Below, piece after piece: positions 1 through 64,000 of a DNA stretch of 64,000 bases. This DNA comes from Deuterostichococcus epilithicus. Its lineage: Eukaryota > Chlorophyta > Trebouxiophyceae > Prasiolales > Stichococcaceae. The stretch is taken from positions 1,364,001 to 1,428,000 of the forward strand of contig JAVTLE010000001.1 of NCBI GenBank assembly GCA_033439295.1, read 5' to 3'. Numbering within the stretch: the stretch's first letter is position 1; each line of letters starts with the position of its first letter. Below the pieces are notes generated by a model. The model had not been told where the DNA came from. It saw only the letters and a list, made by a program, of their open reading frames with translations, and ran no database searches. Made by a program: the position numbers and the translations under genes.

Positions 1-3000
1 CATGCGGGAAACTTGTCTCGAGTTGCAGAGCTGGCATTGCTTGTGCCAGCTGCAAGCAGAAAGCTCACTGTTTCTGTGGAGGGATCCAGTAGCACAACGT
101 CTGAGATGTCGAACAGCTTGACAGGGATGGGGCTGTCCTTGTTAGCGCCCAGCGTCTTCAGCGCGCCTGCGGTCTGGCAAAGAATTGCTTTACAGACCAG
201 AGAGCACAGCAGTCTACGTTCTGCGCGCCTGCGGTGCGAAAGACTCCTGGTTGACACCAGAAACCGCAGCTCCACGGTGCAGATCATAGCGCAGCCCATG
301 GTTGACAATGCAGACGCTGTCATGCAAGTTGGGCAGATGGCAGCACAGCGTGCTCTGCTTCTGACGTTGAACGGCAGACGTCCCCGGCAATGTCACAAAG
401 TCAAGGCCACAAAAGAACTCGATGCAGCAGCGGCGGCGCACCCGGCAGCAGGCTGGTGCGGCAGACCTCGAACTCCGCCGTCGCGGGGTTGCCGATGCAC
501 ACCGCCGATTTGCCGTCGTCCCTCCGCCGCAGCGCCCCAAAGTTTTCCGCTGTAGACACCAGCGCCCAGGTCAGAATCTCGGTGTAGCCGGCCATCGCGC
601 ACTCCCCCCGCAGCAGCTCCGTCAGCTGGTTGACGGGCAGCTCTTGCCCAACGGTCACCGCGTGTGGGATGGTGCGTGCGATGTTGTTGTAACCGTACGC
701 AATGGCCACGTCCTGCAAGCAAATACGCACACATGTCATATAAGACAAGAACGACAGGTGGAGATGAGAGCACGCCTTGTTGTCGAAAACAGAAGGGTAC
801 CAATGAGCAAAACTCACGAGTCTGCACTATGCACAATGGTCGATAGCAACCCCAGCTGCCATGGCACGACCGTCCCACGGCTCTTGCAATATCATATCGA
901 TGAAGCTCGAGCTCGAGAGCCCTAAATCCTGAATCCATGGCCACCGCACCTCTGCAACATCGCAGGCGTGCAGCACGTCTGACCGCGTGGGCGGCACCGC
1001 CACACGGACGGCCGCGCTGTCGTCGACGAGCTGTCCCGCGAGCGCCATGCGCGACAGGCACTCCGCCACCTGCTCCGCTGGCAGCTGCGTGCCCAGCGCC
1101 GCGTTGATGGCCGCCACTGGGACATCCATCTCCCGTGAGCTGAGGTCCGGGTACACTGCGGCACAGGAGGCGTGAGCACGGTGATCCCACGTGAGGAGCC
1201 ATGGGCTAGATGGGGGCAGCCGCTCACAGTACTGCACGTCGGACGGCAGCCAGAGCGGCATGCACGGCTGGCGGGGAGATGCAGCGTGTTGCCATGCAGC
1301 AACATGGAGGCCTGCGCCTCTGCACCGCCTGTCTCGTGCTGCAAATACTCATCGCACGTGCTTGTCTCTAAAGGGGATGCCGTGCTGGAGGCGGCACGCG
1401 CACCTGTGGACTGGCCGAAGGCGTCAACGACCTCGACGGGCTCCGTGACGAAGGGCTCCGAGCAATACTCGGAGAACATCGCGCACAGCGTGTTCAGCAC
1501 CACCTGAACCTCAGGCAGAGGCAGGGTCAAAAGGCAGGTGCTAGAGACAGCATCGCTGACCCGAAACATGCGACCTGCCGTGGCTTGTGCCGCACCACTC
1601 CTGACAAGCCCTCCCGCTGCTGTGCAAGGCAGCTCCGGTTGCGTGGCAGCGCCGCTGCCACGGGTGTGCAGACGGTTTGCGAGGTTTATGCTGATCGGCT
1701 GGAAGTGGGATGCCCTGCGCAATCTGCAGGAACACGCCCGCAGCGCTGTGCTTCACAAGTGGATCGATAGAGGGGAATGCATCAGCCTGAAAGGTGGGAG
1801 GACATCCTGTGCGAAGGAAACCACACCTTGGCTTTCGTCAAGTCCGTGGCTGTGGCCTCGATGAATACATCCCTCGTGTTCAGCGAGATCTGCAGCACCC
1901 ACCACCACGAGATTGTAAAGCAGCAACCTGAGGGTGTGCCATCGTTTGCGGTCGTGCCTGGGCTGCACAAGGGGGGCACTGCATGCTGTGATTGGCCGCT
2001 CCAAAACTTGTGCAAATGCCACAGGTGAATCTCCACAGGAGCGCTGAGCCGCGCAGTGAGGCCGCTGCATCACTGCCAGCCCGGTGCAAATCACGTGACC
2101 TGGACACAGGAGCACCAAAAAGGCGCACCGCCGAGTGGGCGCTGTTGATGATGGGCGGCAGCGACAGCACCGTGCGCGCTGAGTCAAGCACCACCGGGTA
2201 CACCAGCGAGTCCTGGATGATGGGCACGAAGCGCCGCAGCTTCTGGTCGTTCGCCAGGTAGTGCTGCAGAAGCACGAGAAACCACTGGGCACCTCAGCAA
2301 TCGGGGAACCAGTCGCAAAGGACCATGGCAAGCATGCGGCAAGACGGGCAGAGATGCTCACAAGGGGCGTGGCGGCGCAGCGATGTCACGCTGCGCTCCC
2401 ACCCCGCAGGCGATGCACACTCAATTCGTCCCCAGGCACTTCGAGGACTGCACAGGAGCACGACGGGCACTTGCAGGCGGACTGATGCGCGGAATTTCTG
2501 GTCATACATCCAGTGCGTCACCTCCAGCAGCTCGTCGGCGCGGAAGGCGCGCTCCTGCTTGAGTGGCACGAAGGAGATGGACGCCGGCGGCAGAGCCTCA
2601 TATGTGAAGGGCGGTTTGAGGGTCGCCAGGTCGTGCGTGCCGACCGACACCAGGCTCCGCTGCCGGCACAGGTTCTGGTGCAGCTTGTCCTGCGGCGCGG
2701 CATGGGGTTGCGGAGTGAGGACAGGCAATTTGAGGACGGAACATCTGGTGCCTCAGCGCTGTCGTTGACTTCCGCTCAGCAGGCAGCCGTGCCACTGCAG
2801 CGTGCATCCGTCTCAGCAGATACAGCCGGGCCTTTCCGCCTGCAGTACTTGGGCTGGCGGCTGCCGGCTGAACCGTACCGCAGGCACCAGTGCCTGGGAG
2901 TGACTCAAGTCTGTTGCACCTGCAGGTCGATGAAGGAGTTGTAGCGGGTGGCATCGAAGGTCACGCCGCGCAGCACCGCCGCCACCACAAAGGGCCGCAC

Positions 3001-4282: not shown

Positions 4283-6806
4283 ATGGCGGTCGGCAAGAAC
4301 AAGCGCATGTCCAAGGGCAAGAAGGGCGGCAAGAAGAAAGCGTGAGCCCGCCGGCCCTTGTTGCAGCGATGCGCTGCTCATAGCCGGTGGCAGCCCACCT
4401 GCGCGATGCACGGAGCGTCTGGGGGGTCCTTGTCCGCAGCCTCTGCTCCGTTCTGGGCGGTAGCTGTGGCCCTCCGCGGTTGGTGGCGAGGCTGATGGGG
4501 ATGGTGCAGACCAGTGACTTGCTTGTCGTGCCTGCAGTCAGGACCCCTTCTCGAAGAAGGACTGGTACGAAATCAAGGCGCCCAGCGCTTTCAGCGTCCG
4601 CAACGTGGGCAAGACCCTGGTTACGCGCACGGCCGGCACAAAGGTCGGAGCCTGCATCGATTGCAGCACCAGCAAGTCTTGCACACTACTTGGGAGCTAC
4701 CGGCCTGCAGGCAGCTCTTTGCTTGTGCTTAGTAAGGCCTGGATACTTCGAGACCTGTTCCCTTTTCCTTGCAGATTGCCTCGGATGGCCTGAAGGGCCG
4801 TGTGTTCGAGTGCAACCTGGCGGACCTGCAGAACGTGAGTCGCCGCCGCTTGCATGTTCCATCTGCACCCTATCTGTGATGCAAAGCAGCACTCTCGTGC
4901 TTGAGAAATGCTCATACTGCTTGCCTCCCTCTGCAGAACGAGGCTGATGCCTACCGGAAGATCCGCCTCAGGGCGGAGGACGTGCAGGGCCGCAACGTCC
5001 TCACTAACTTTTGGGTGAGAGCGGAAACCTGCTTTTACGCTCCTGTGTTTTCCTTGGAATGTGCTTGCGGCATTGCAGAGAGAACACAGGCGATAAGACA
5101 GGGCAGCCGTCGGGTGGAGCAGCCGCAGAGGGGGGCAGCTGCCCATGGCTGGGCTGGAACATCGCAAGGAAGGGGCGCTGGGTGGCAGGGTGCAGCAGCT
5201 GCCACAGAGCACCTTGGAACTCCGCGCTGCAGCTATGCGTGGCTGGAATGGTCTTTCAGCAAAGCAGCTGCGATCGCCCTGCCGGCGAAACCCGTATGTA
5301 GCTGCCAGCAAGCCGCCGATACTCAAATGTCTTGCTAAACTGGAAGACGATTGATGTTCAACCAGCAGATGTCGAGCTCGCTACTCGGCTGCGGCGAGGG
5401 GCGGCCTTGGCCGCCGAGGTGCAGCGGGCCCGGGGAGCCAGGTCACTGGGGGGGGACGAAGGGAGCGGACCGCTGCGCGACCACAGGGTCGCAAGGGACG
5501 CTCTCACCAGCCCTGCTACTTCTGCTGACCTTGTACCTCTGTGCTTGAAACAGGGCATGGACTTCACCACGGACAAGCTGCGGTCGCTGGTGCGGAAGTG
5601 GCAGACGCTGATCGAGGCGCACGTGGACGTCAAGACCACCGACGGCTACCTGCTGCGCCTGTTCTGCATCTCCTTCACCATGAAGCGCCCTGGGCAGATC
5701 AAGAAGACGTGCTATGCGCAGAGCAGCCAGGTGCTGAGTCACAACCCGCCTGCTGCTGTTATGTGTGGCTGCTGCAGACAGCAAGTCGTGCACCTGAACA
5801 CCCTGATGCATTGCATGCCTCATACGGGTGCGGTTGTGCATGAACTGCACAGCACCTAAGCAGCGGGGCTTGGTCTAGCACATGCGTCACGTTGAAAGGT
5901 GGACCGTCGCTGACCTCTGCCTGCGGCCCATGGAACAGATCCGCACCATCCGCAAGAAGATGGTGGAGATCATGCAGCGCGAGGCGTCCTCCTGCGACCT
6001 GAAGGAGCTGGTCGGCAAGTTCATCCCGGAGTCCATCGGTGCGCACCTGCAAGTGTTTTCTCTGCAGACGCCCCTTCGAAGTGGTGCTCTCTTGTGACCC
6101 ATGTCTCTTGTGCACCGTGTTCTGTGTTCTGAGCAGTGTATGCATTGCGCCTCCCCTGTGGCGTGAGCAAAATGAGCACACTACTGCGCCAACCGGCAAT
6201 GAACAACCTCCCAGCTGTGGTGAGGCTCCCAACTTGTGGTGATCCCTGCCTGCGTCCGGCCGCAGGCAAGGACATCGAGAAGGCGTGCCAGGGCGTGTAC
6301 CCGCTGCAGAACACCTACATCCGCAAGGTGAAGGTGCTGCGGGCGCCCAAGTTCGACGTGACCAAGCTGATGGAGGTGCACGGCGACTACAGCGAGGAGG
6401 TATGTCCTGTTTATTGTCTTTTATTTTACTATATTGTTTTGAATATGGCGCTCCTTCACAGCGTGCTGTCCCTCGTGCCCCTGTGCCTCTACCTCATTCC
6501 AATGTTCTTGCCTGCCACTGGCTGCACGATTCTACAATGTTGCGCTTCCCTTTGGGCCGTGGACTGCCGCCTGCGGTGTCGACAGGCTTGACGCACAGTT
6601 GCAGCCGGTGGTACCAGCAACAGTGTCGGGCCTCTACTGTCCCTGCAACGGTGCAGACGAGCTCCAAAGCGGGTGGCGGTGTTGGGCCTCGCTGAGGAGG
6701 TGCAATTGTGACGAACACCTGTGATGCCCCACAGATCGGCAAGTCGATTGACCGCCCGACAGAGGACGCGCCTGCGGAGGAGGCCGCCATGGAGGAGGAG
6801 GCCTGA
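4283..6806 (+). CDS. RPS3A: 40S ribosomal protein eS1 (S3a), 8 exons, 261 aa
   Basis: Structural protein of the small ribosomal subunit near the mRNA exit. Exons: 4283-4341, 4538-4643, 4775-4834, 4937-5014, 5554-5730, 5939-6038, 6266-6399, 6735-6806. The sum is 786 nt, so 261 residues plus stop, against 264 in human. It begins [19 protein letters not shown] and keeps the family hallmarks [60 protein letters not shown] and [19 protein letters not shown], ending in an acidic tail ([14 protein letters not shown]). All seven introns are GT-AG and 102-539 bp long. A TGTAA, the usual chlorophyte poly(A) signal, lies at 6987-6991, about 180 nt after the stop. I looked for box C/D snoRNAs in the introns, because the animal gene hosts one, and saw none convincing. 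Confidence 0.98.
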
Positions 6807-7376
6807 AAGTCTCTGACAGACCTTTGGCCGTCTGCTCGCACTGCTGTGGGGGAAGAGTGAGGCAGCTTTTGCAGCGACACAGTGCAGTCGGTATGTTGGG
6901 CTTACTTGTCAGCGGCGGGCAAGTGCTGGCCCGCGGCGCGGTCCCTGCCATGCACGAGCTGAGCGCGTCCTGCCTGCATCTGCGGCTGTAATATTCGTCG
7001 CATTGCACCCAACGTCCCTTGCTGTTGTTGCCATACACCACGCACCTGCTGGCGCACAATCCTGGCTCGAGCCGAATGAAGTTGTCTTGTGCCTTAGAGG
7101 GTTTACGTACAAGGGCACTTGCGGCATGTCCCATCTCTTTGCTTGCGCTGGTCCGCAGGGAGCGACGTCTCGATCAGTCTGAAACACTTCAGCTAAAGCG
7201 GTTTGCCTTGAGAGATGCACGAGCGCGAAGCGCAGCACGACCGCGCAAGGAGGCTCCTAAAGTAAAGGAAGCACAACTTCCGAATCAGTGCAGCAGCCCT
7301 AACTCAGGCTTTCGCTGTGTTCCGACCTTGCAGTGATCTAGCTTACACCGTGAGGGTTGCCGATCCAGGCACTAGA
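6807..7376. other. RPS3a 3' UTR and bZIP upstream region
   Basis: 570 bp between two plus-strand genes. TGTAA at 6987-6991 probably directs polyadenylation of the RPS3a mRNA. The rest should hold the bZIP promoter and 5' leader. An in-frame ATG at 7317 could extend the bZIP protein by 20 residues. I prefer 7377, after which the sequence is Pro/Gly-rich and continuous with exon 1. Nothing else is recognisable. Confidence 0.5.
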
Positions 7377-10300: not shown

Positions 10301-11300
10301 GACGGGCTTGCCGAGCAGCACGGCAAACCCCCCGCTCCGCCGGATGATGGTCTGGACCCTGCGAGGCGAGATCTTGGCGTCTTCGCTTGCACACTTTGAC
10401 CGAGGTTCTCCCTGTGCGCGTGCACCCTGCAGGGTGTGCTCCATGGCGGGGTGGAAGGACGAGGGCAAGTGGCTCAAGGCAGCGCGGGAGCTGAACTTCA
10501 GTCCGGAGCAGCGCAAGCGCGTGCTCGATGCCCGCGACGAAGCGCTCGGCATGCTGCACCNGTNNGTGCCCCCCCTCTTTCCTCCCCTGCTTGCTTGGAC
10601 TCCCGTGTCTTACCTGCTCCATGTTTTGACTTGAAGCCACCATCTATCAGCAGCACGCAAATTTCCACAAAATAACACCAGGCCTTCAGGATATGCGGCC
10701 TCTGGTGAGATGCATGCATGTTTTCGGGGGCGAGGCCCGCTGTCTGATCTTTCAAGTGCCTCCGACCCGTCCACACCCCTACTGTGCCGCCGCGCAGGCT
10801 GTACGGGGAGCGGCACGCGCTCAATGCGCAGGTGCTGCACGGGCTGCAGCCGGCGCTGTTTGCGCCCGCCGCTGACGATGCGAGCGCGACGGCGGCCGCA
10901 CGCGAGATGGCCCGCCTTCTGGACGCGCTGGCCGCCAACCTGGCGGCCGAGCAGCGCGAGCTCGCGCGGCAGGACTTCGTTCTGTTCCGCCAGCTGCTGA
11001 CGCCCATCCAGGCACGCCTCTGCCGCTGAGGCTGCCGCCGTGGCCGCCGCGCGCTCCTGTCCGCCGACGCCGCTGCAGCGCAGCCGCCACTGCCGGCTTG
11101 CTTGGCGCTGCGAGTGGGCTTCCCAATCGCTTGTACTGGGGACGTCCACGAGGCATTGCAGCAATGAAGCTGTCTGCAACCCAGATGTTGACACTGTGCT
11201 TTGCTGGTCGCAGGCGGGGCTGCTGGTCAGCATCAGCTTCCCAGACCACTGCGACGCGCTGGCACTTTTCAATGCTGTGTACGCTGTGGCGACCGCGTGA
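7377..11300 (+). CDS. bZIP transcription factor, algal type
   Basis: Sequence-specific DNA-binding protein, presumably nuclear. Clear exons: 7377-7602, 7743-8035, 8181-8271, 8415-8496, 8733-8849, 9151-9331, about 9659-9814, 9918-10004, 10074-10164, 10433-10561, 10797-11011 and about 11214-11300. The basic region is split by the 8497-8732 intron. Once joined it reads NKLAQIRYRERKRGRVDDL, with the invariant N-x7-R spacing and the RYRERK signature common in green-algal bZIPs. A leucine zipper follows with heptad L/I at LQGDISALEAQLAELQ. Before it lies a Ser/Pro/Gly/Gln-rich, probably activating, segment. After it comes a helical C-terminal region with FSPEQRKRVLDARDEALGML and several Leu/Ala-rich helices that I cannot assign to a named domain. 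The 8850-9150 intron appears to start with GC. Ambiguous bases at 10561-10564 hide one donor. Target genes and dimer partner are unknown. Confidence 0.85.
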
Positions 11301-50200: not shown

Positions 50201-53200
50201 GCAGGTATGTGCTCCTCATTGAGCACCTTCACATCCGTTCTCAGGTTCATGATCCTCAGCTCCAGTACCCCTTGTGCGGGGCAGACATGCACTTTACGTT
50301 GTACTTACTGATCACTGAGCTGTAAACGGCCAGCACTGGCCATGAGGAAGCTTGCACACGTCTCATGACTCGCCCTTTCTTGCAACCCATCCATCGGGAG
50401 GCCGGCTGCCAAGCCACACCACACACTCACCCACGACTCGTCAACCGTCATGTTTAACAGGCGCGCTGCACCCGGCGGTGCCGAAGCCGCTGCGCCGCTA
50501 CATGGTGGCCTTCCTGGCGGACCTGCACACGGGCGCCAATGTGGCACACTCCTTCGGCGCCGCCGGCGGCCCCTGGGAGTTCAACCTGCGCGACCTGCTG
50601 CGCTGGTGCTGCCTGGCGGAGGGCGCTGTGCCGCCCGGCGTCACTGCCACGCCCGCCGGCGCCGCGCGGGTGCGCTGCACTCAGTGGCCCCTGAGAGGAA
50701 GAGGCGCTGCAGGGAGAGCTCCCTGTGTCTCTAGTCGCAGCTATTGATACACGCATTGTGATGTGCAGCTCTGCTGCCGAGTCTGAGGAAGTCGGCGAGA
50801 GGAAGCCACTCTCAGATCCCGCGGGTTTGAGTGCAAAGCAGGCGGGGTCCACCGATACGAGTGCCACTTGCGAGACTATCAGAATACATGACTGTTTGCG
50901 CTGACGCTGAATGCAGGCAGTTGAGGAGGCGGCAGAGCACTATGTGTACATCCTGGTAGTGCAGCGCCTGCGCACGCCGGGCGACCGCGCCGCGGCGGCA
51001 GCGGCCTTCGAGCGCGCCTGGGGCCGGCCACTGACGCCGCAGCGCCGCCCCAGCGTGGCGGTCGGGCCACAGCTGACGCAGATCGGGCGGGCCGCACTGC
51101 GCCGCGTGAGCGCGCACGAGCAGCCGGACGGCGTGGCCTCGCCAGGTAGCGGCTTGTGTCCAGATTCTACTACCTCTAGCACGTACACAAGATGTTAGAC
51201 ACACCAAACGAAGCTCCTAAGGTTCGAGGTCTGGCGACTCTGCTTACGATGCTGCGCAGCCACGACTGCTGATCTTCATGGTTAATATCAACTGATTTCA
51301 TCAACAACAACATCCACACATACACGAGGCAGTCGCTGCAAACCCGTGCTTTCTGCACGCAGGTGCAGTCGGCGGCCGGGCGAGTGGCCTGGTGCTGCTG
51401 CCGGGGCAGCTGCCAGCGCTGGAGAGCCTGGCGGAGTGCCTCGCGCGCGGCTGGCCGGCGCTGCTGGTCGGTGGCCCCGCCTCTGGCAAAACCTCGTTGG
51501 CACGCAGCGCCGCGGCCCTCGCAGGTGTGCCGTCTGCACTGCAGCGCACCACAGCACCACAGCGCAGTCTGTGTCCGCGCATGTATCGACCTCCTATACA
51601 GCTCAAGCTTCTTGTGCATGCAAAAGTTTTGTCTTTCAAGGCACATACATGGAGCTGGTTACTGGTTGGCTGCATTCGTATGATCCAATTCAAACTCGAT
51701 CGCAATGTGACAAATCTATGCATCTCTTCGGGCTGCATGATGTCACGAAGTCAGGACAGGAGCTGGTGGGAGGTGCTGGCTCCCGAGCTCACCTGTCGAC
51801 ACTACTTTCAGGCCGGCACCTGGTGGAGGTGGCGCTGTCAGCGGGCAGCGACACCGCGGACCTTCTGGGCGGCTTCGAGCAGCTGGAGCCCGCGCGCGTG
51901 GTGCAGGTGCGTCTGCGGGACTGCCTGCAAGTTTTATTGAATCGGCCCCAACACAGCTCTGTCAAGCCACAGCAGGGCTCAGCCACATGCATGTGGCTTG
52001 AGGGTGAGCTGGTTTTGGCGCCGATTCGATCAGCAGATGTCAGTGCACCCTCCTCGTCTTGTAGGGCTGTGCATGTCCGGTTCAGAGATTCACTGAGGAG
52101 ACAATTTCTCAACGACTGCTGAGCTGGTGGCTGCCAGCTGCCGGAGGTGCGGAGGGGCCAGCCTGCTGAGCATTCGTGGCCGCGGCACAGGAGCTAGTGG
52201 AACAAGTTCGGAGCGTCCTGTACGCCGGCGCCGCCGCATTGCTGGCCGGCGGTGGCGCGGGCGAGGCTGACGCCGCAGCGCTACACGCGGCTGTGGAAGA
52301 GGTCTCCGCTGCGCTCGCAGCCCTGGAGCAGCTCCAGAGCAGTCCCGAAGGTGGGCAGGAGCAGGAACGATGCTGAGTTCAGCATTCAGCGTTCGGCCAG
52401 GCTGACTGGGCCTGCATTTGTCAGACCCCCCGGTTAGCAACATGGCAGCTGGCTCCACCCCGCAAGGTCGGTGCCGTGGCTCGTCTTGAAGTCGTGGAAG
52501 CTGGGGCGCCTGTTGCTGACCCAATGTGCATGCTACTGCCCGTGTGCCTGCTCCGTGTGGGTTTCACTGAGCAGATCACAGTCCTTGCTGCATACGTCCA
52601 TGACGCTAGACCTGTACACACGTTTGATGTACACCGGTGCAGGTGAACAGCGGCAGCCGCTGGAGCGCCTGGCGGACATCGTGCAGCGCCTGGAGGCGGT
52701 TGCCGCCTCGTGGCCCGGCGCCGCGGCACAGCGGCTGCGTGCGTCGCTGGCGGCGGCGCTGGCGGCCGTCTCCGCCGGCCGGCACACGGGCAGCGGTGGG
52801 GGCGCCGCCAGCGCCGGAAGGTGTGTATCTGCAGCGCCAGCACCGCAGGCATTCCTCGTGTGCACATCCTGAAGCGCCGAGAATGTTTCCGACTGCACTG
52901 ACCACTTCGTGCGGCGCAGCAGTGTGGGATCGCCTCAAAACTTCGTGAAAATGAGTCTGAAGGGTACTGGATGGGTAGTGGACCGCTCTCACATGTGATG
53001 CATCCGCAGGTTCGAGTGGGTGGACGGCGCGCTGACGCGTGCGGCCGAGGCTGGCGGCTGGGTGCTGCTGCGCGGCGCCAACCTGGCGGCGCCGGCGGTG
53101 CTGGACCGCCTGAACTCGCTGCTGGAGCCGGGCGGCGCGCTGGTTCTCAACGAGGCGGGCGCCCCCGGCGGCGCCCCCCGCACCGTGGCCCCGCACGCCG

Positions 53201-59200: not shown

Positions 59201-62200
59201 GGCGCAGCATCGGCAGCAGCCGGCGGCGCTGCGNACCCGCCGGGCACGGCGGCACGCAGCTCGCTGCTGGCGGGGCTCACCGGCAGCGGAGCAGACGCCA
59301 TCGCGGTGGACGTGTCGGCCTGGCCGGCTCGGGTGCTGCAGCTGCGCCTCGCGGCGCGCCATGCCGCCAGGTTGCCGCTCTCATGCTGCTGATGCTGGTG
59401 TCTTGCTGCCCTGGCGCCGCGGTGCAGGACATGCGCCTGATCAATTGACTACAAGTCTGTTCAGATTGAACTGACTGAGGCCCGAGCAGGCCCGGCTCGC
59501 CCTCTCTCGCTTGCATCGATCGTCCTGGTTAGCTTGCATCGGTGGTCAGGTCGAAGGGTGTTTTGCTGGAGATCTCATTGCGGAGGGCTGCACCATGGCG
59601 CCTGCAGGCTGGGCACGCGACGCGGGCTGGCGGAGCTGCGGGCAGAGTCGGCGCGCGACTGGGCGGCGCTGGCGGCGCTGCNGCAGCAGCTGCTGGCGGC
59701 GCACCTGCCCAGCCTGCCGGACGCTGGAGCGCGCGCTGCGGCCGCGGAGGCGCTTGCTCAGCTCGCGAACGCGGCGCAGCATCCGGCGGCACCCGCGGCT
59801 GCGGATCTCAGGTGCGACAGCACTGCGAGGCACACATCAGCCAGGTCGATCCATCCTACTGACTTCTCGACAGTCTGCCATGCCTGCGCTGCCCATTTGC
59901 AGCTGTTGCTTGCTGGCAGTCCACCTGCAAACTCTGGGCTGTGCTTGCAGCGCGCTCGCGAGCCTGCCGCAGCTGCTGGCGACCTCGCAGCACGCCGCCT
60001 TCCAGCGCGTCCTGATGCCGCTGCTGCTGCCCTGCTTGGCGGGTGTCACCCAGCATCTGGCTGGGCAGCCCAGCGACCAACAGCTCCAGGTGCGCAAGCC
60101 GGCTGCCCTTCTGCCTCGCCAATTCTTATCTGCGCAAAGTGACAGCCAAATTAGAACCCCCGAGGGCGACGCTAGGGTAACCGCCAGGGTGCGGCACCTT
60201 TCGCGGCTGGCCTTGAACTTCAGGCATGCTGTCTTGCAGCCCCCTACTCCTGCGCTGACGCCGATGCACGTTGTTGCGCAGGACCTGGCACGGCGCGGCA
60301 GGGTGTGGGCGCTGCTGGGCGCCGCGCGGCTGGCGCTGGTGGCGCNGGCGCCCGGCGTCGACCCCGCGGCAAAGTACGGCCTGCAGCGGGCGCACCTGCT
60401 GCGCCGCCTCGCCGAGGAGCTGGGCCCCGAGCTGCAGGTGGGGCCTGTGCATTAAGTCGATCGGTATCGGGCAAGTAACATATCGCATTTGAGGGCCATA
60501 GGTATGTTTCAGTGCGACACTCTCCTGTAGCAGCATTGCGGCGGGCAGCCCAGTGCCATGCAGACGCAGGCCAGGCGTCTGTGCCGGTGTTGAAATGCCA
60601 CCGTCAGGGCGCAAAATTGCGCCTGCATGGCTGATGATGGCCGTCGCAATGCAGCGGCACTGCATCTGCACTCACAACCACCGTCTTGACATCTGCGTCG
60701 GACTAGAGCGGGCCAGGTTGTGTCAGCCGCTGTTTCCCAGAATTTCGTTGAAAGATCAATGAAGACCAAATCGCATAATCAGGAATGCATGCCAGCGAGG
60801 CTCGCCTTTCCGTGAGGCCGTGTGGAAGTCGCCTTTGACTGGAGGCAGGAGGTATCAAGCTGCGGCGGTGTCGGGCCTAGGAAGGGCTCCTGAGCTGGAC
60901 CCAACAGCAACTGCGCCATTGCATGGTGCAGATCGGCCCAACCATTAATAACATCATGAACTCGTTCTCCAGGTCCGCGAGGCGCTGCTGGCGCTGCCGG
61001 GCGGCGCATCCGAGGCGGCCGCAGCGGCAGGCCTCCGCGCCAGGATCGAGGACTTGCAGCGTCAGGCGGACGCGCTGGAAGGGCGGGCGGTGCCGCGGCC
61101 GGCGCCGTCGCAGTACGCACGCCTCGCGACGGAGGCGGCGGCTTTCGTCGCCGGCGCCGGCTCGCCGGAGCGTGTTGTAACGCTGGTCGCCGCCCTGGAG
61201 GTGGGCTGCACGTTGGTGCCGCCTGCTCTTGGGTTTCATCGCTGCGAGTCGTTATCTGCACTCATAGGTCGCAAGTGCTGTCCAGGACGACAAGCATCCT
61301 TGTGTGACGTGTGCCCTCCTGACGCGGCATGCTCCACTCGATCCTGATTCTCTCGAACATGCTGCTTCAGGAGGGCACACAACACATAAGGATGCTTGTG
61401 TATCTCATGTATTTCGCTTTGAACCTTTGACAAGCCCTTGGCGACACCCTGCTCGCCACAGGAGGGGCAGCTTTGCGGCGCCGCAGGGGCCCAATGCACT
61501 ACATAAACTGTCCATAAGTAAAACTCACTGTCGACATCCGGCAACGCCTTTGCCACACCCTGCAGGAGGGGCAGGCTGGCGTCGCCGCAGAGGCGTGGTG
61601 CAGCAACGCCGTGGCGTGGGCGGCGCGCCTGGCCGACAGCCACCCCGGGTACCGCGACCTGACGCAGCCGGTCGCGCTGGCGGTGGCGGAGGCTTGTCGC
61701 GGCCTGGCCATGCTGGCGGCGCACGCCGCCATCGCCTCGCCCGCCGGGCTGCGCGGGTCTGGGACGGGGCCCAGCCCTGCGGCGCGCCTGGCCGCGACGC
61801 TGGCGNCGCTCATGGCCTTCCCGCGGGCGGCGGGGGCCGGCAGCGGCGCAGTCGCGGACCTGGGCAGCTCGGAAGCGCAGGGGCTGGTCGCTCGACTGGC
61901 GGTCGCCTCCACGCAGGTCCGCATCCTGGCGCTTCGTTTTGTGCTCTTGATATGATTTGGATCTGGTCATGGCGCATGTGATCTCATGGATGAGCCTCCC
62001 AGGGGTGCATACCAACTTGCGTGTCAACTGCCCTGACGCCGGGGCACAGCAGGACTGTCTGCCGTGCACATCTGTTGCTCGGACCTGTGCTGCTGCATGG
62101 CTGGCGCGCCTGCTCTGCTTGACAGCTGCTCTGCATCACCCCTTGCAGGATGGCAAGGCCGGCGAGGTGGCGGCGTACAGGGCGCGGCTGCAGCTGCTGC

Positions 62201-64000
62201 AGGCGGCGCTGCACGCTGCGGTGCGGTCCGCGCAGCTGTCCGGGCACGGCAGCGCCGCCGGCTCCTTGGCCCAGGTGCGCTCTGTCACGCACTACATCCA
62301 CGCCCTAAAACTGCTCACTTCGCCTGACTGCACAGAGGGCACTGCTACATTTGCCAATGCTGCATCTGCCGAGCAGCACCGTGCGCGGTCGAGCATCGCC
62401 CAGCGCCTAGACGTCGGCGGCCGGCATCGCAGAATTTCGGATGATGAGCAGTGTGTGCCGCCCGGATCGCAGCGCCTGCTGGCGGCATTCGTGGCGGCGT
62501 GGAGCGAGGTCAAGGCGGCGCAGGAGGCTAAGGCGGCTGAGGAAGCGGAGCTGTTCAAGACCAAGACACGCTCCACCGACATCGCCACCGAGGAGGTGCC
62601 TTTCCTGTGGATCTGGCAACCCATTTTGCACTGAGGGCGCATGCCCGGTCAACAGTAGCGGTACTGGCGATGACGGTGTGTGACTGTATCACACCTGTCA
62701 TCGCCTGTGTCACCTGGCTCATCGAAAGGTCACGCACCACGATGAACTCCATCCACTGGATGGTTTTGATTTGACTGTTGATTGCGCTTGGTGCTACTGG
62801 CACCCCGTTGAGGCTCCTCTAGATTAAAAGGCTGCCGCACACGACCAGGACCCTTTCTATAACAATCCTGCAAACTCTGGCAGACGTTTGTGGCAAAAGA
62901 GGAGGGAGCGTCCTGCCAGGCGGCATGCGCGGACCACTGTCATGCATTCAAGGAAGCTGACACTTGTGAATTCCGCGACATCCCCACAGGAGGAGGAGGA
63001 GGCCTCCTACCAGGCGGCGTTCCCGGACCACTTCGCCGACTTCGAGGACGTGGCCACCCTTGAGGACGAGGTGGTGCCTACAAACCTGGAGACGGACGGG
63101 CGGCGGCCGGTGGTGGCCGGCGGCGCCGTGGCCAGCGAGGCGGAAGCGGGAAGCTCCGCGGCGGCGTCGCTGCTGGGCGGCCGGCAGCTGCGCCAGCTGG
63201 TCCGCCTGCATGACAGGTGAGGCATTTCCTGCTGCCCTTGCATGAATTGGGTAATTCGTGGTGCAAGATTTGGACGCTGCACATCTGCAGCCCTCCTGCA
63301 GCGGGCAGCCCGCCTGCACGACAGGAGTTAAGCCCATATCTGGTTTCCCTGCGCAAGGAGGTAGACACTGTGATGTGCAGAAGGTCGCAACAGTACACCT
63401 GCCGATGGAGTCTGACATCCACCGGTCGTGACCTCCTTTACTCAGCAGTCGAACCTGCGCTGCTGACTGGACCTCTGCCAGCAATGTTCATCTTCGACGC
63501 TCAGGCTCTTCAATGCCGCCGGCGCTGAGGAGCCGGAGCAGGCTGCCGCCGCCTTTGAGGCCGCGTACGACCTCGGAGCGCAGCTGCTGCGGGATGCGCA
63601 CGGCGCGTCAAGTTCGTCACTCGACGCTGACCTGGCGACAGGGCACCTGATGCGGCTGGCGCGCGAGCATGCCGGCCTGGCGCGGCCGCCTGCCGCCACG
63701 CCTGATGCAAGTCTGCCACTACATGGAATCGGTACTTTTTCCATCGCACTTCGTGTACTCGCGCGCTCCAACATGCTCGCATCACGACTTCAGTTCGACC
63801 GGCTTCTCAACTTCTGCATACAGCACAGTTTCGACTCGAGCGGCGGAATTGTGCCGTATGCAGAGATTGAGAACCCATGTTGCCGTCTCGGTGGCACACC
63901 ACTCTGCGCATGAAGCGAGCTGACAACCTAGTTGACCAATAAGTTGAGGCATGTCTGATTTCATGACCTGGGGCTCCAGATCTACTGCGCTTGGCTGGCT
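33455..64000 (+). CDS. MDN1: Midasin (Rea1), AAA+ ATPase of 60S subunit maturation; 3' part beyond right edge
   Basis: Dynein-like giant ATPase that pulls assembly factors (Ytm1, Rsa4) off pre-60S particles in nucleolus and nucleoplasm. The start at 33455 (MSEPKRGADWDRFDW) follows a T-run, and exon 1 ends at 33586. More than 50 exons of about 60-670 bp span over 30 kb. Order: N-terminal helical domain (33455-about 35050), six AAA+ modules in one chain (35247-about 54080, listed separately), then an Ala/Leu-rich helical linker (about 54604 to the edge). The last exon visible starts near 63980. The acidic D/E-rich region and C-terminal MIDAS domain are not reached. Family hallmarks: GPPGSGKS, VGETGTGKT twice, GPTSSGKTS, GSPGVGKTS and GGPASGKTS as Walker A, LDELNLAPSEVLEALNR-type Walker B, and FRSRFLE / LNRFS arginine fingers. 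Introns at about 37263, 41879 and 42220 use GC donors. Single ambiguous bases occur at 55417, 58539, 58553, 59234, 59682, 60346 and 61806. Introns hold decayed exon copies (see findings). Confidence 0.97.
35247..37627 (+). other. Midasin module AAA1
   Basis: Begins TVERNLQAAALALCQQQPLL. Walker A GPPGSGKSAIL is split by the 35490-35875 intron. The switch segment is TIDDQMDAKSLLGAYVCTA (about 35945-36000) and the Walker B is degenerate-looking, LLVEDIDTAPPEVLAALAPL (about 36307). The small domain exon ends NFSIRDIIKWCRRMQ at 37262, where a GC donor follows. Walker B reads ED-I-D rather than the DELNL of modules 3-5. Confidence 0.9.
38110..41083 (+). other. Midasin module AAA2
   Basis: Walker A VGETGTGKTALVQHL at about 38266-38310. 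LNLSQQTDSSDLLGGFRPVE is at about 38720-38780. A charged insert with a nuclear-localisation-like RPQKRARLK lies at about 39205. Walker B is split exactly at the DE/VN boundary (WLLLDE to 39673, VNLAPPEALQ from 39933). Sensor and arginine-finger exon DLPAQLRNRFTEVWVGEPG is at about 40395-40445. The lid exon is 40859-41083. Confidence 0.95.
41215..41262 (+). repeat. Copy of the end of a midasin AAA2 exon in the following intron
   Basis: GGCACCTGCTGCCCGGCGTG, then ACTAGACTCAAGGT, repeats the last 35 bp of the exon ending near 41083, about 165 bp downstream. A GT follows at the matching donor position. Confidence 0.8.
42453..42950 (+). repeat. Decayed partial copies of the AAA3 Walker B exon in flanking introns
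   Basis: The exon is 42652-42797. Copies: 42453-42480 (GTAGCTACGTGACGGAC), 42550-42604 (GGGCAGCCATGTGCCGGACG, continuing through CTGGCCTTTCGAGGGG) and about 42898-42940 (TTGGCGCCCAGCGGGG through AAGGCGCTCAACTG). Each matches part of the exon at about 75-90% by eye. None has both splice sites and frame, so they are not usable exons. Confidence 0.8.
43391..43450 (+). repeat. Decayed copy of the AAA3 exon that codes LLDDNRELYVPELREAV
   Basis: The exon starts at 43518. The copy at 43391-43450 reads CAGGCTGCAGGACGACAATC then GTGCCGGAGCTGCACGA, preserving even the acceptor AG. It is about 80% identical over some 55 bp and sits 127 bp upstream in the same intron. Confidence 0.85.
44254..44305 (+). 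repeat. Decayed copy of a midasin AAA3 lid exon start
   Basis: CGACTGGCAGCGGTGCTGGC, then AGAGCGACTG, copies the exon at about 44353-44400 (GACGGCTACGCGGTGCTGGC, then GGAGCGGCTG) some 95 bp upstream of it. Confidence 0.7.
44653..48266 (+). other. Midasin module AAA4
   Basis: GIVWTPGMRRMYSLLERC at about 44750-44800. Walker A VGETGTGKTTVCQAAAAAAG at about 45074-45130. NCNQHTEASDFLGSFRPTR ends near 45209. An Ala-rich insert lies at 45402-45600. Walker B MILVDELNLAEDAVIERLN is at about 46303-46358. GFRLVATMNPG ends near 46855, and ELSPALANRFTTIWVPAIHD is at about 47250-47310. Lid exons run to 48266. A degenerate copy of the Walker B exon follows in the intron (46428-46498). Confidence 0.95.
46428..46498 (+). 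repeat. Decayed copy of the AAA4 Walker B exon in the following intron
   Basis: Begins GACGAGCTCGACCTGGCTGA and ends GTTCCGCTGCACAGAAG. The true exon end (from about 46315) reads GACGAGCTCAACCTAGCGGA and is followed by GGTGCCGCTGCTCTGAAAA, so the copy includes both the exon end and the start of the intron. About 75% identity. Confidence 0.85.
49280..49343 (+). repeat. Three tandem copies of a 21-bp unit
   Basis: Unit ACCTGTCAATCCTCTTTNNNN occurs three times (starts about 49280, 49301, 49322) right after the donor of the AAA5 Walker B exon. It is a pyrimidine-rich intronic minisatellite. Confidence 0.85.
49386..49445 (+). repeat. Decayed copy of the end of the AAA5 Walker B exon
   Basis: GTGCTGGAGGCCTGAACGTG, then GTGCTGGACCACAGAGAGAG, followed by GTGAGC, copies the exon end at 49232-49274 with its donor. 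It lies about 165 bp downstream, just beyond a 21-bp triple repeat. Confidence 0.85.
51364..54080 (+). other. Midasin module AAA6 (Walker B lacks the catalytic Asp-Glu)
   Basis: Walker A VGGPASGKTSLARSAAALAG at 51466-51523. VEVALSAGSDTADLLGGFEQ is at about 51825-51885. Insert exons are about 52173-52370 and 52644-52821. The Walker B position reads WVLLRGANLAAPAVLDRLNS (about 53056-53115), so RGAN replaces the DELN of modules 3-5. SRAMRNRGVEIFLLPEA is at about 53757-53810. This module probably binds but does not hydrolyse nucleotide. Confidence 0.93.
57728..57812 (+). other. Intronic fold-back hairpin, candidate small-RNA precursor
   Basis: Arm GCCTCCTTTGCCAGAC (57728-57743) and its near continuation to 57750 pair with 57789-57812 (TCTGGCAAAGGAGGC). 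That is about 23 pairs with one bulge, and weaker pairing extends into the 38-nt interior. It lies in a midasin linker intron, next to an 84-bp tandem repeat. It could be a pre-miRNA-like hairpin or the terminal inverted repeats of a tiny fold-back element. Confidence 0.55.
57813..57960 (+). repeat. 84-bp tandem repeat, about 1.8 copies
   Basis: CCTCGCGAGAAT occurs at 57828 and 57912, each followed by CGACACGA and TGTACATCATCC. Both units are preceded by TCGAAGA. It lies directly after the hairpin at 57728-57812, in the same midasin intron. Confidence 0.8.
61290..61399 (+). other. Long intronic hairpin, strong small-RNA precursor candidate
   Basis: The 5' arm 61290-61334 (starts ACAAGCATCCTTGTGTG, contains GTGTGCCCTCCTGA) pairs with 61355-61399 (contains TCAGGAGGGCACAC, ends AAGGATGCTTGT). 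By hand count there are about 40 pairs of 45, two of them G-U, and four or five scattered mismatches, around a 20-nt loop. It lies inside the midasin intron between exons ending near 61200 and starting near 61574. Size and shape fit an algal or plant pre-miRNA; a MITE-like fold-back element is the alternative. Confidence 0.65.
61440..61490 (+). repeat. Decayed copy of an acceptor and exon start, midasin linker
   Basis: GGCGACACCCTGCTCGCCAC, then AGGAGGGGCAGC and a GGCGCCGCAGG block, copies the region around the exon starting near 61574 (GCCACACCCTGCAGGAGGGG, then CAGGCTGGCGTCGCCGCAGA), about 115 bp upstream. Confidence 0.75.
62666..62705 (+). other. Short perfect-stem hairpin in midasin intron
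   Basis: GGCGATGACGGTGTG (62666-62680) pairs with CACACCTGTCATCGCC (62690-62705), 15 pairs with one bulge and a 9-nt loop. It lies about 70 bp after a linker exon. Function unknown. Confidence 0.5.
62897..62957 (+). repeat. Decayed copy of a midasin linker exon start
   Basis: AGAGGAGGGAGCGTCCTGCC, then AGGCGGCATGCGCGGACCAC, copies the exon at about 62990-63050 (GAGGAGGAGGCCTCCTACCA, then GGCGGCGTTCCCGGACCACT), about 95 bp upstream of it. Confidence 0.8.
63300..63335 (+). repeat. Decayed copy of a midasin linker exon end
   Basis: GGGCAGCCCGCCTGCACGAC, then AGGAGTT, resembles the exon end at about 63190-63225 (GCCAGCTGGTCCGCCTGCAT, then GACAGGTGAG), about 110 bp downstream. Short match, so weaker than the others. 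Confidence 0.55.

Follow-up and report, generated by a model that had tools for sequence, protein, structure and literature searches.

Host intron and gene

The DNA analysed here (the window) is a stretch of 64,000 nucleotides (nt) from one contig of Deuterostichococcus epilithicus. It carries a 110-nt imperfect fold-back at 61290-61399, which is C1:1425290-1425399 in genome coordinates, embedded in an intron of what is probably the midasin gene and considered here as a candidate precursor of small RNAs. The coordinates of all features are collected in Table 1. The intron (61201-61565) is delimited by the reading frames on its two sides, which read ...VTLVAALE and then EGQAGVAAEAW... across it, and the fold-back begins 89 nt after the donor site and stops 166 nt short of the acceptor.

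Table 1. Features of the host region and fold-backs of the genome sample
Feature	Position	Strand	Evidence
AAA lid domain PF17867, profile positions 11-62 of 106	50475-50633	+	E 2.2e-9, above curated cut-off
Exon upstream of host intron (5′ boundary approximate)	60973-61200	+	Open frame
Host intron, 365 nt, phase 0, GT-AG, GTGGGC...CCCTGCAG	61201-61565	+	Reading frames
5′ arm of fold-back	61290-61334	+	Inverted-repeat search, minimum free energy (MFE), position-by-position pairing
Perfect 14-bp helix, 5′ side	61309-61322 (partner 61367-61380)	+	MFE fold
Terminal loop region, 20 nt	61335-61354	+	Inverted-repeat search, MFE
3′ arm of fold-back	61355-61399	+	Inverted-repeat search, MFE, position-by-position pairing
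Candidate 21-nt 3p product starting with U	61360-61380 (partner 61311-61331, 2-nt 3′ overhangs)	+	Inference from pairing; one possible register
Exon-containing open frame downstream of host intron	61566-61955	+	Open frame
Fold-back in window	61290-61399		Palindrome score 27
Fold-back L023, perfect	4710-4798		Palindrome score 29
Fold-back L018, arms 315 bases apart	1566-1966		Palindrome score 25
Fold-back L031	6889-6995		Palindrome score 21

The original prediction had placed the hairpin in a midasin intron. The intron is supported by the frames, and the identity of the gene is probable. An AAA_lid_7 (PF17867) match at 50475-50633, the only one returned for the genome, lies on the same strand as the hairpin about 10.7 kb upstream, and this family is presumably the lid of midasin. 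The downstream frames (FKTKTRSTDIATEE, SYQAAFPDHFADFEDV) resemble what we take to be the part of midasin preceding its C-terminal domain. The host gene is probably midasin as read from these two places, which are not joined by a gene model. Pfam searches of 30 single open reading frames (ORFs) to name the host returned nothing, and PDB searches of three ORFs gave no significant match.

The 3′ splice region of the same intron is duplicated in tandem (61440-61490 and 61544-61594; 104-nt spacing, 32-nt core, 84% identical), leaving an acceptor-like decoy copy inside the intron.

Structure of the fold-back

The repeat search gave two arms of 45 nt (61290-61334 and 61355-61399) that are 87% complementary and lie 20 nt apart. 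Compared position by position on the + strand, the arms form 39 Watson-Crick and two G-U pairs, so that 41 of 45 positions pair as RNA; the remainder are two A-C and two other mismatches. The stem includes two uninterrupted helices, of 14 and 12 bp. The predicted architecture, with about 40 of 45 positions paired around a 20-nt loop, was reproduced.

Folding of 61290-61399 gave an MFE of -73.5 kcal/mol on the + strand (shuffles: mean -28.8, standard deviation 3.6; z -12.5) and -72.0 kcal/mol on the - strand (z -11.5), and in neither case was any of 200 shuffles as good. In the predicted fold of 61202-61586, a stretch that includes almost all of the intron, the hairpin stays intact. Inverted pairing was at chance level when extended into the full intron flanks of the hairpin (46% of 1000 shuffles as good) and marginal in the 50 nt nearest to it (5.4% of 1000 shuffles).

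Comparison with the genome background

The background was a 264-kb sample of the same genome, made up of the window and twenty 10-kb stretches (about 1 kb of the first overlaps the window and is counted twice), and the null for palindromes was eight dinucleotide shuffles of the entire sample. No palindrome in the window scores higher than the fold-back, at 27 against 16 for the runner-up. Four fold-backs of the sample score at least 20 and two at least 27, while none in the eight shuffled copies reached 18. As the window was selected for its hairpin, the count outside it is three fold-backs of score at least 20 in about 200 kb. That such pairing is far beyond chance for 110 nt, as originally claimed, is supported by these shuffles and by the z-score of the + strand.

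Raw folding energy is not extreme. Among 52,038 window-strands (N-free 110-nt windows of the sample on a 10-nt grid, both strands), the grid placement of the hairpin (61291, -72.4) ranks 44th, and 83 reach -70 kcal/mol; numerous GC-rich stretches elsewhere are equally stable when folded. Raw energy is a poor guide in this GC-rich genome, and the continuous palindrome is the exceptional feature.

One of the other fold-backs, L031, also appears to lie in an intron. Pairing continues into its flanks (15 of 16 positions, 0 of 1000 shuffles as good), so its bounds were widened to 6864-7020 (C7:2606864-2607020). The widened element was found once in the genome, and its minus (host) strand has an MFE of -101.3 kcal/mol (z -11.0). 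It lies upstream of an HSP90 exon on the minus strand (PF00183, E 8.2e-12), and the piece WAVQNDNKPLW, presumably HSP90-like, lies on its far side from that exon, which places it in an HSP90 intron. Found once and similar in build to the fold-back at 61290-61399, L031 is counted in favour of a small-RNA precursor.

Candidate products and small-RNA machinery

Along the 5′ arm a 21-nt product can be placed in 25 registers and a 22-nt product in 24, and each register has one to three unpaired bases (G-U taken as paired, 2-nt overhang excluded). The mismatch limit given for Chlamydomonas microRNA (miRNA) duplexes in PMC5511227 is four in 20-22 nt, and every 5′-arm register lies within it. The resemblance to algal or plant miRNA precursors that was first noted in the hairpin holds for its shape.

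Piwi-domain pieces, rescored by ORF, were found at C7:934315-935557, one above and one below the cut-off. One piece matches Argonautes in the PDB, and the pieces contain the motifs GADVTHP, YRDGV and THYHV, presumably a slicer reading. On the same strand, 3.2 kb upstream of them, is a PAZ domain (C7:938778-938999), and together these domains indicate that the genome encodes an Argonaute, at the one locus detected. Two RNase III domains are separated by about 4 kb on contig 19, and a third, the strongest of them, is on contig 3. The pair may represent a Dicer, incomplete as found. Chlamydomonas Dicer-like (DCL) proteins are likewise described as lacking a detectable PAZ domain (PMC4817775).

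The chlorophyll a/b-binding domain gave 39 matches in the genome. For one exon, the best single-stretch PDB matches are CP29, although four repetitive chains of light-harvesting complex I (LHCI) score higher over the whole sequence. These domains and the CP29-like exon point to a genome of the green lineage.

A proposed intron-derived precursor of small RNAs

The fold-back at 61290-61399 is predicted to be an intron-derived precursor of an miRNA or hairpin small interfering RNA, probably a young one, and the chances of this being correct are put at about even. The host pre-mRNA would be transcribed and its intron would fold into the predicted 45-bp imperfect stem. A Dicer-like enzyme could then cut 21-22-nt duplexes from the stem, and one strand of a duplex would be loaded into the Argonaute of the sole locus detected. 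The stem probably arose by local inverted duplication, with arms that now differ by about 13%. Youth and species-specificity are suggested by the uniqueness of the element in this genome and by the habit of algal miRNAs.

If real, the locus would not be of a new kind, as introns are already a main source of miRNAs in Chlamydomonas according to PMC4817775. Nine of the high-confidence miRNAs listed there come from introns and two from untranslated regions (61.1% together), and splicing was not required for processing in the one intronic case described as tested. Closest in arrangement are the intron miRNAs of Chlamydomonas reinhardtii (e.g., cre-miR1157, given as DCL3-dependent and splicing-independent in PMC4817775). 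They share with the fold-back the position in an intron of a protein-coding gene, the single copy found, and a genome that encodes Argonaute as well as paired RNase III domains with no PAZ detected, but the hairpin described here is a predicted precursor.

Chlamydomonas is described as commonly having non-conserved loci that show features of young miRNAs (PMC5511227). Such young, species-specific loci of Chlamydomonas and Arabidopsis, some of them thought in that paper to be born by inverted duplication, resemble the fold-back in their long near-perfect stem and lack of a clear target; they differ in that no progenitor copy was found in this genome. miRNAs are also reported from Chlorella sorokiniana and Coccomyxa subellipsoidea, according to a review (PMC12026948). 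A literature search returned no paper on midasin with an intronic miRNA, and none for the core sequence of the hairpin.

Several observations weigh against a small-RNA precursor. No Rfam family reached its gathering score in the window (0 matches), and the best hit of a relaxed search was MIR6140, on the opposite strand, which scored 44.7 bits where the cut-off is 140. The opposite strand of the fold-back folds nearly equally well (-72.0 versus -73.5 kcal/mol) and the differences between the arms are even on the + strand, two G-U versus two A-C (only four in all); neither observation points to selection on the RNA as transcribed. With no PAZ domain near the RNase III pair, and neither a helicase nor a Dicer-dimer domain in the ORFs scanned around it (which took in 3 kb upstream), a Dicer is possible rather than proven. 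Matches to the arms elsewhere in the genome were no more numerous than expected by chance for the three patterns searched, and neither a target nor a progenitor stands out. The one extra place matching the second of these patterns would, within a pre-mRNA, be complementary to a 3′-arm RNA, but looks intronic.

The arm search covered the whole genome with three patterns taken from the arms, at up to three mismatches, and its counts include both arms. The 17-mer pattern gave 137 places (135 besides the arms; reversed control 44) for a Markov expectation of 171-182, the second pattern three (one besides the arms; reversed control 0) for 1.6-1.9, and the third nine (seven besides the arms; reversed control 0) for 5.4-7.2. 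The counts do not exceed the Markov expectation and show no excess of arm matches. The reversed control sets the bar too low: the Markov model, which was trained on the 264-kb sample, predicts 49-50, 0.4-0.5 and 3.0-3.5 places for the reversed patterns. One 17-mer match, at C7:935789-935805 in the Argonaute gene region, was set aside as chance because pairing fails beyond 17 nt.

If a small RNA is produced, intron-borne miRNAs with fast turnover would more likely be a general green-algal habit than a peculiarity of Chlamydomonas, and such an RNA would be tied to a ribosome-assembly gene. If none is produced, the fold-back would exemplify the raw miRNA-like hairpins that arise and decay in introns. 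A bolder extension, in which hundreds of single-copy fold-backs, partly in introns of housekeeping genes (midasin, HSP90), form an undescribed small-RNA network tied to growth state, is a long shot; the figure of hundreds is a crude extrapolation from four in 264 kb.

Alternative origins and roles

The main rival, which remains strong and is a real possibility if not a probable one, is that the fold-back is a neutral inverted duplication, passive in a tolerant intron, which folds when transcribed and yields no small RNA of consequence. Template switching during replication is a possible origin of inverted duplications; among the titles listed by a literature search, none is on hairpin origin by this route. 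Equal numbers of G-U and A-C where the arms differ fit such a passive element, as do the single copy found and the chance level of arm matches elsewhere. The unrelated tandem duplication of the 3′ splice region shows that the host intron tolerates local duplication, and fold-backs of mixed build are present in the genome sample. Less easily accommodated is the well-kept pairing, with stretches of 14 bp and 12 bp free of mismatches despite the divergence of the arms.

The hairpin might instead serve the intron structurally, with a stem that brings its two splice sites closer together, or it might be cut by Dicer and so tune the host mRNA, with no functional small RNA involved. The intact hairpin in the predicted fold of the near-whole intron agrees with this, and Chlamydomonas DCL3 is described as lowering some mRNAs by cleaving embedded hairpins directly (PMC4817775). 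Nothing specific to such a role was found at this locus, however, and an intron of 365 nt is judged to need no such help. This explanation is considered improbable.

The original prediction had offered a small fold-back transposon as its alternative, and this is now disfavoured. Miniature inverted-repeat transposable elements (MITEs) and fold-back transposons likewise have long inverted repeats at their ends with a short unpaired stretch between them, but the hairpin and the 402-nt stretch 61199-61600, which holds the intron, each found only themselves in a search of the 46.8-Mb genome (which scores the best candidates only and skips very common words). Many copies flanked by target-site duplications would have marked the element as a MITE. 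A single copy was found, and no direct repeat above chance was detected at the hairpin ends in 30 nt on each side (score 10, 36% of 1000 shuffles as good). The combination of one copy and no target-site duplication makes a transposon very unlikely. The ends of a mirtron hairpin coincide with the splice sites; the fold-back shares with animal mirtrons its intronic location but ends away from both splice sites of intron 61201-61565, at the distances given above, and a mirtron was rejected.

Other fold-backs and minor features

The remaining fold-backs of the sample differ in build. L023 (4710-4798) is a perfect inverted repeat of 29 bp with a 31-nt loop, situated in GC-rich sequence, and may be real or an assembly effect; the same 10-kb piece also contains 10 Ns. 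L018 (1566-1966), with 43-nt arms (37 positions matching) flanking a 315-nt centre, is more like a small transposon, and no direct repeat above chance was seen at its ends. A smaller hairpin of 70 nt (21 of 24 pairs, -39.3 kcal/mol) lies in the window at 63804-63873 (L015 805-874), 2.4 kb downstream of the fold-back at 61290-61399 and in the same gene region.

Ten isolated Ns resembling ambiguous base calls are scattered over the window (10561-10565, 55417, 58538, 58553, 59234, 59682, 60346 and 61806), and the one at 61806 falls in the exon after the host intron.
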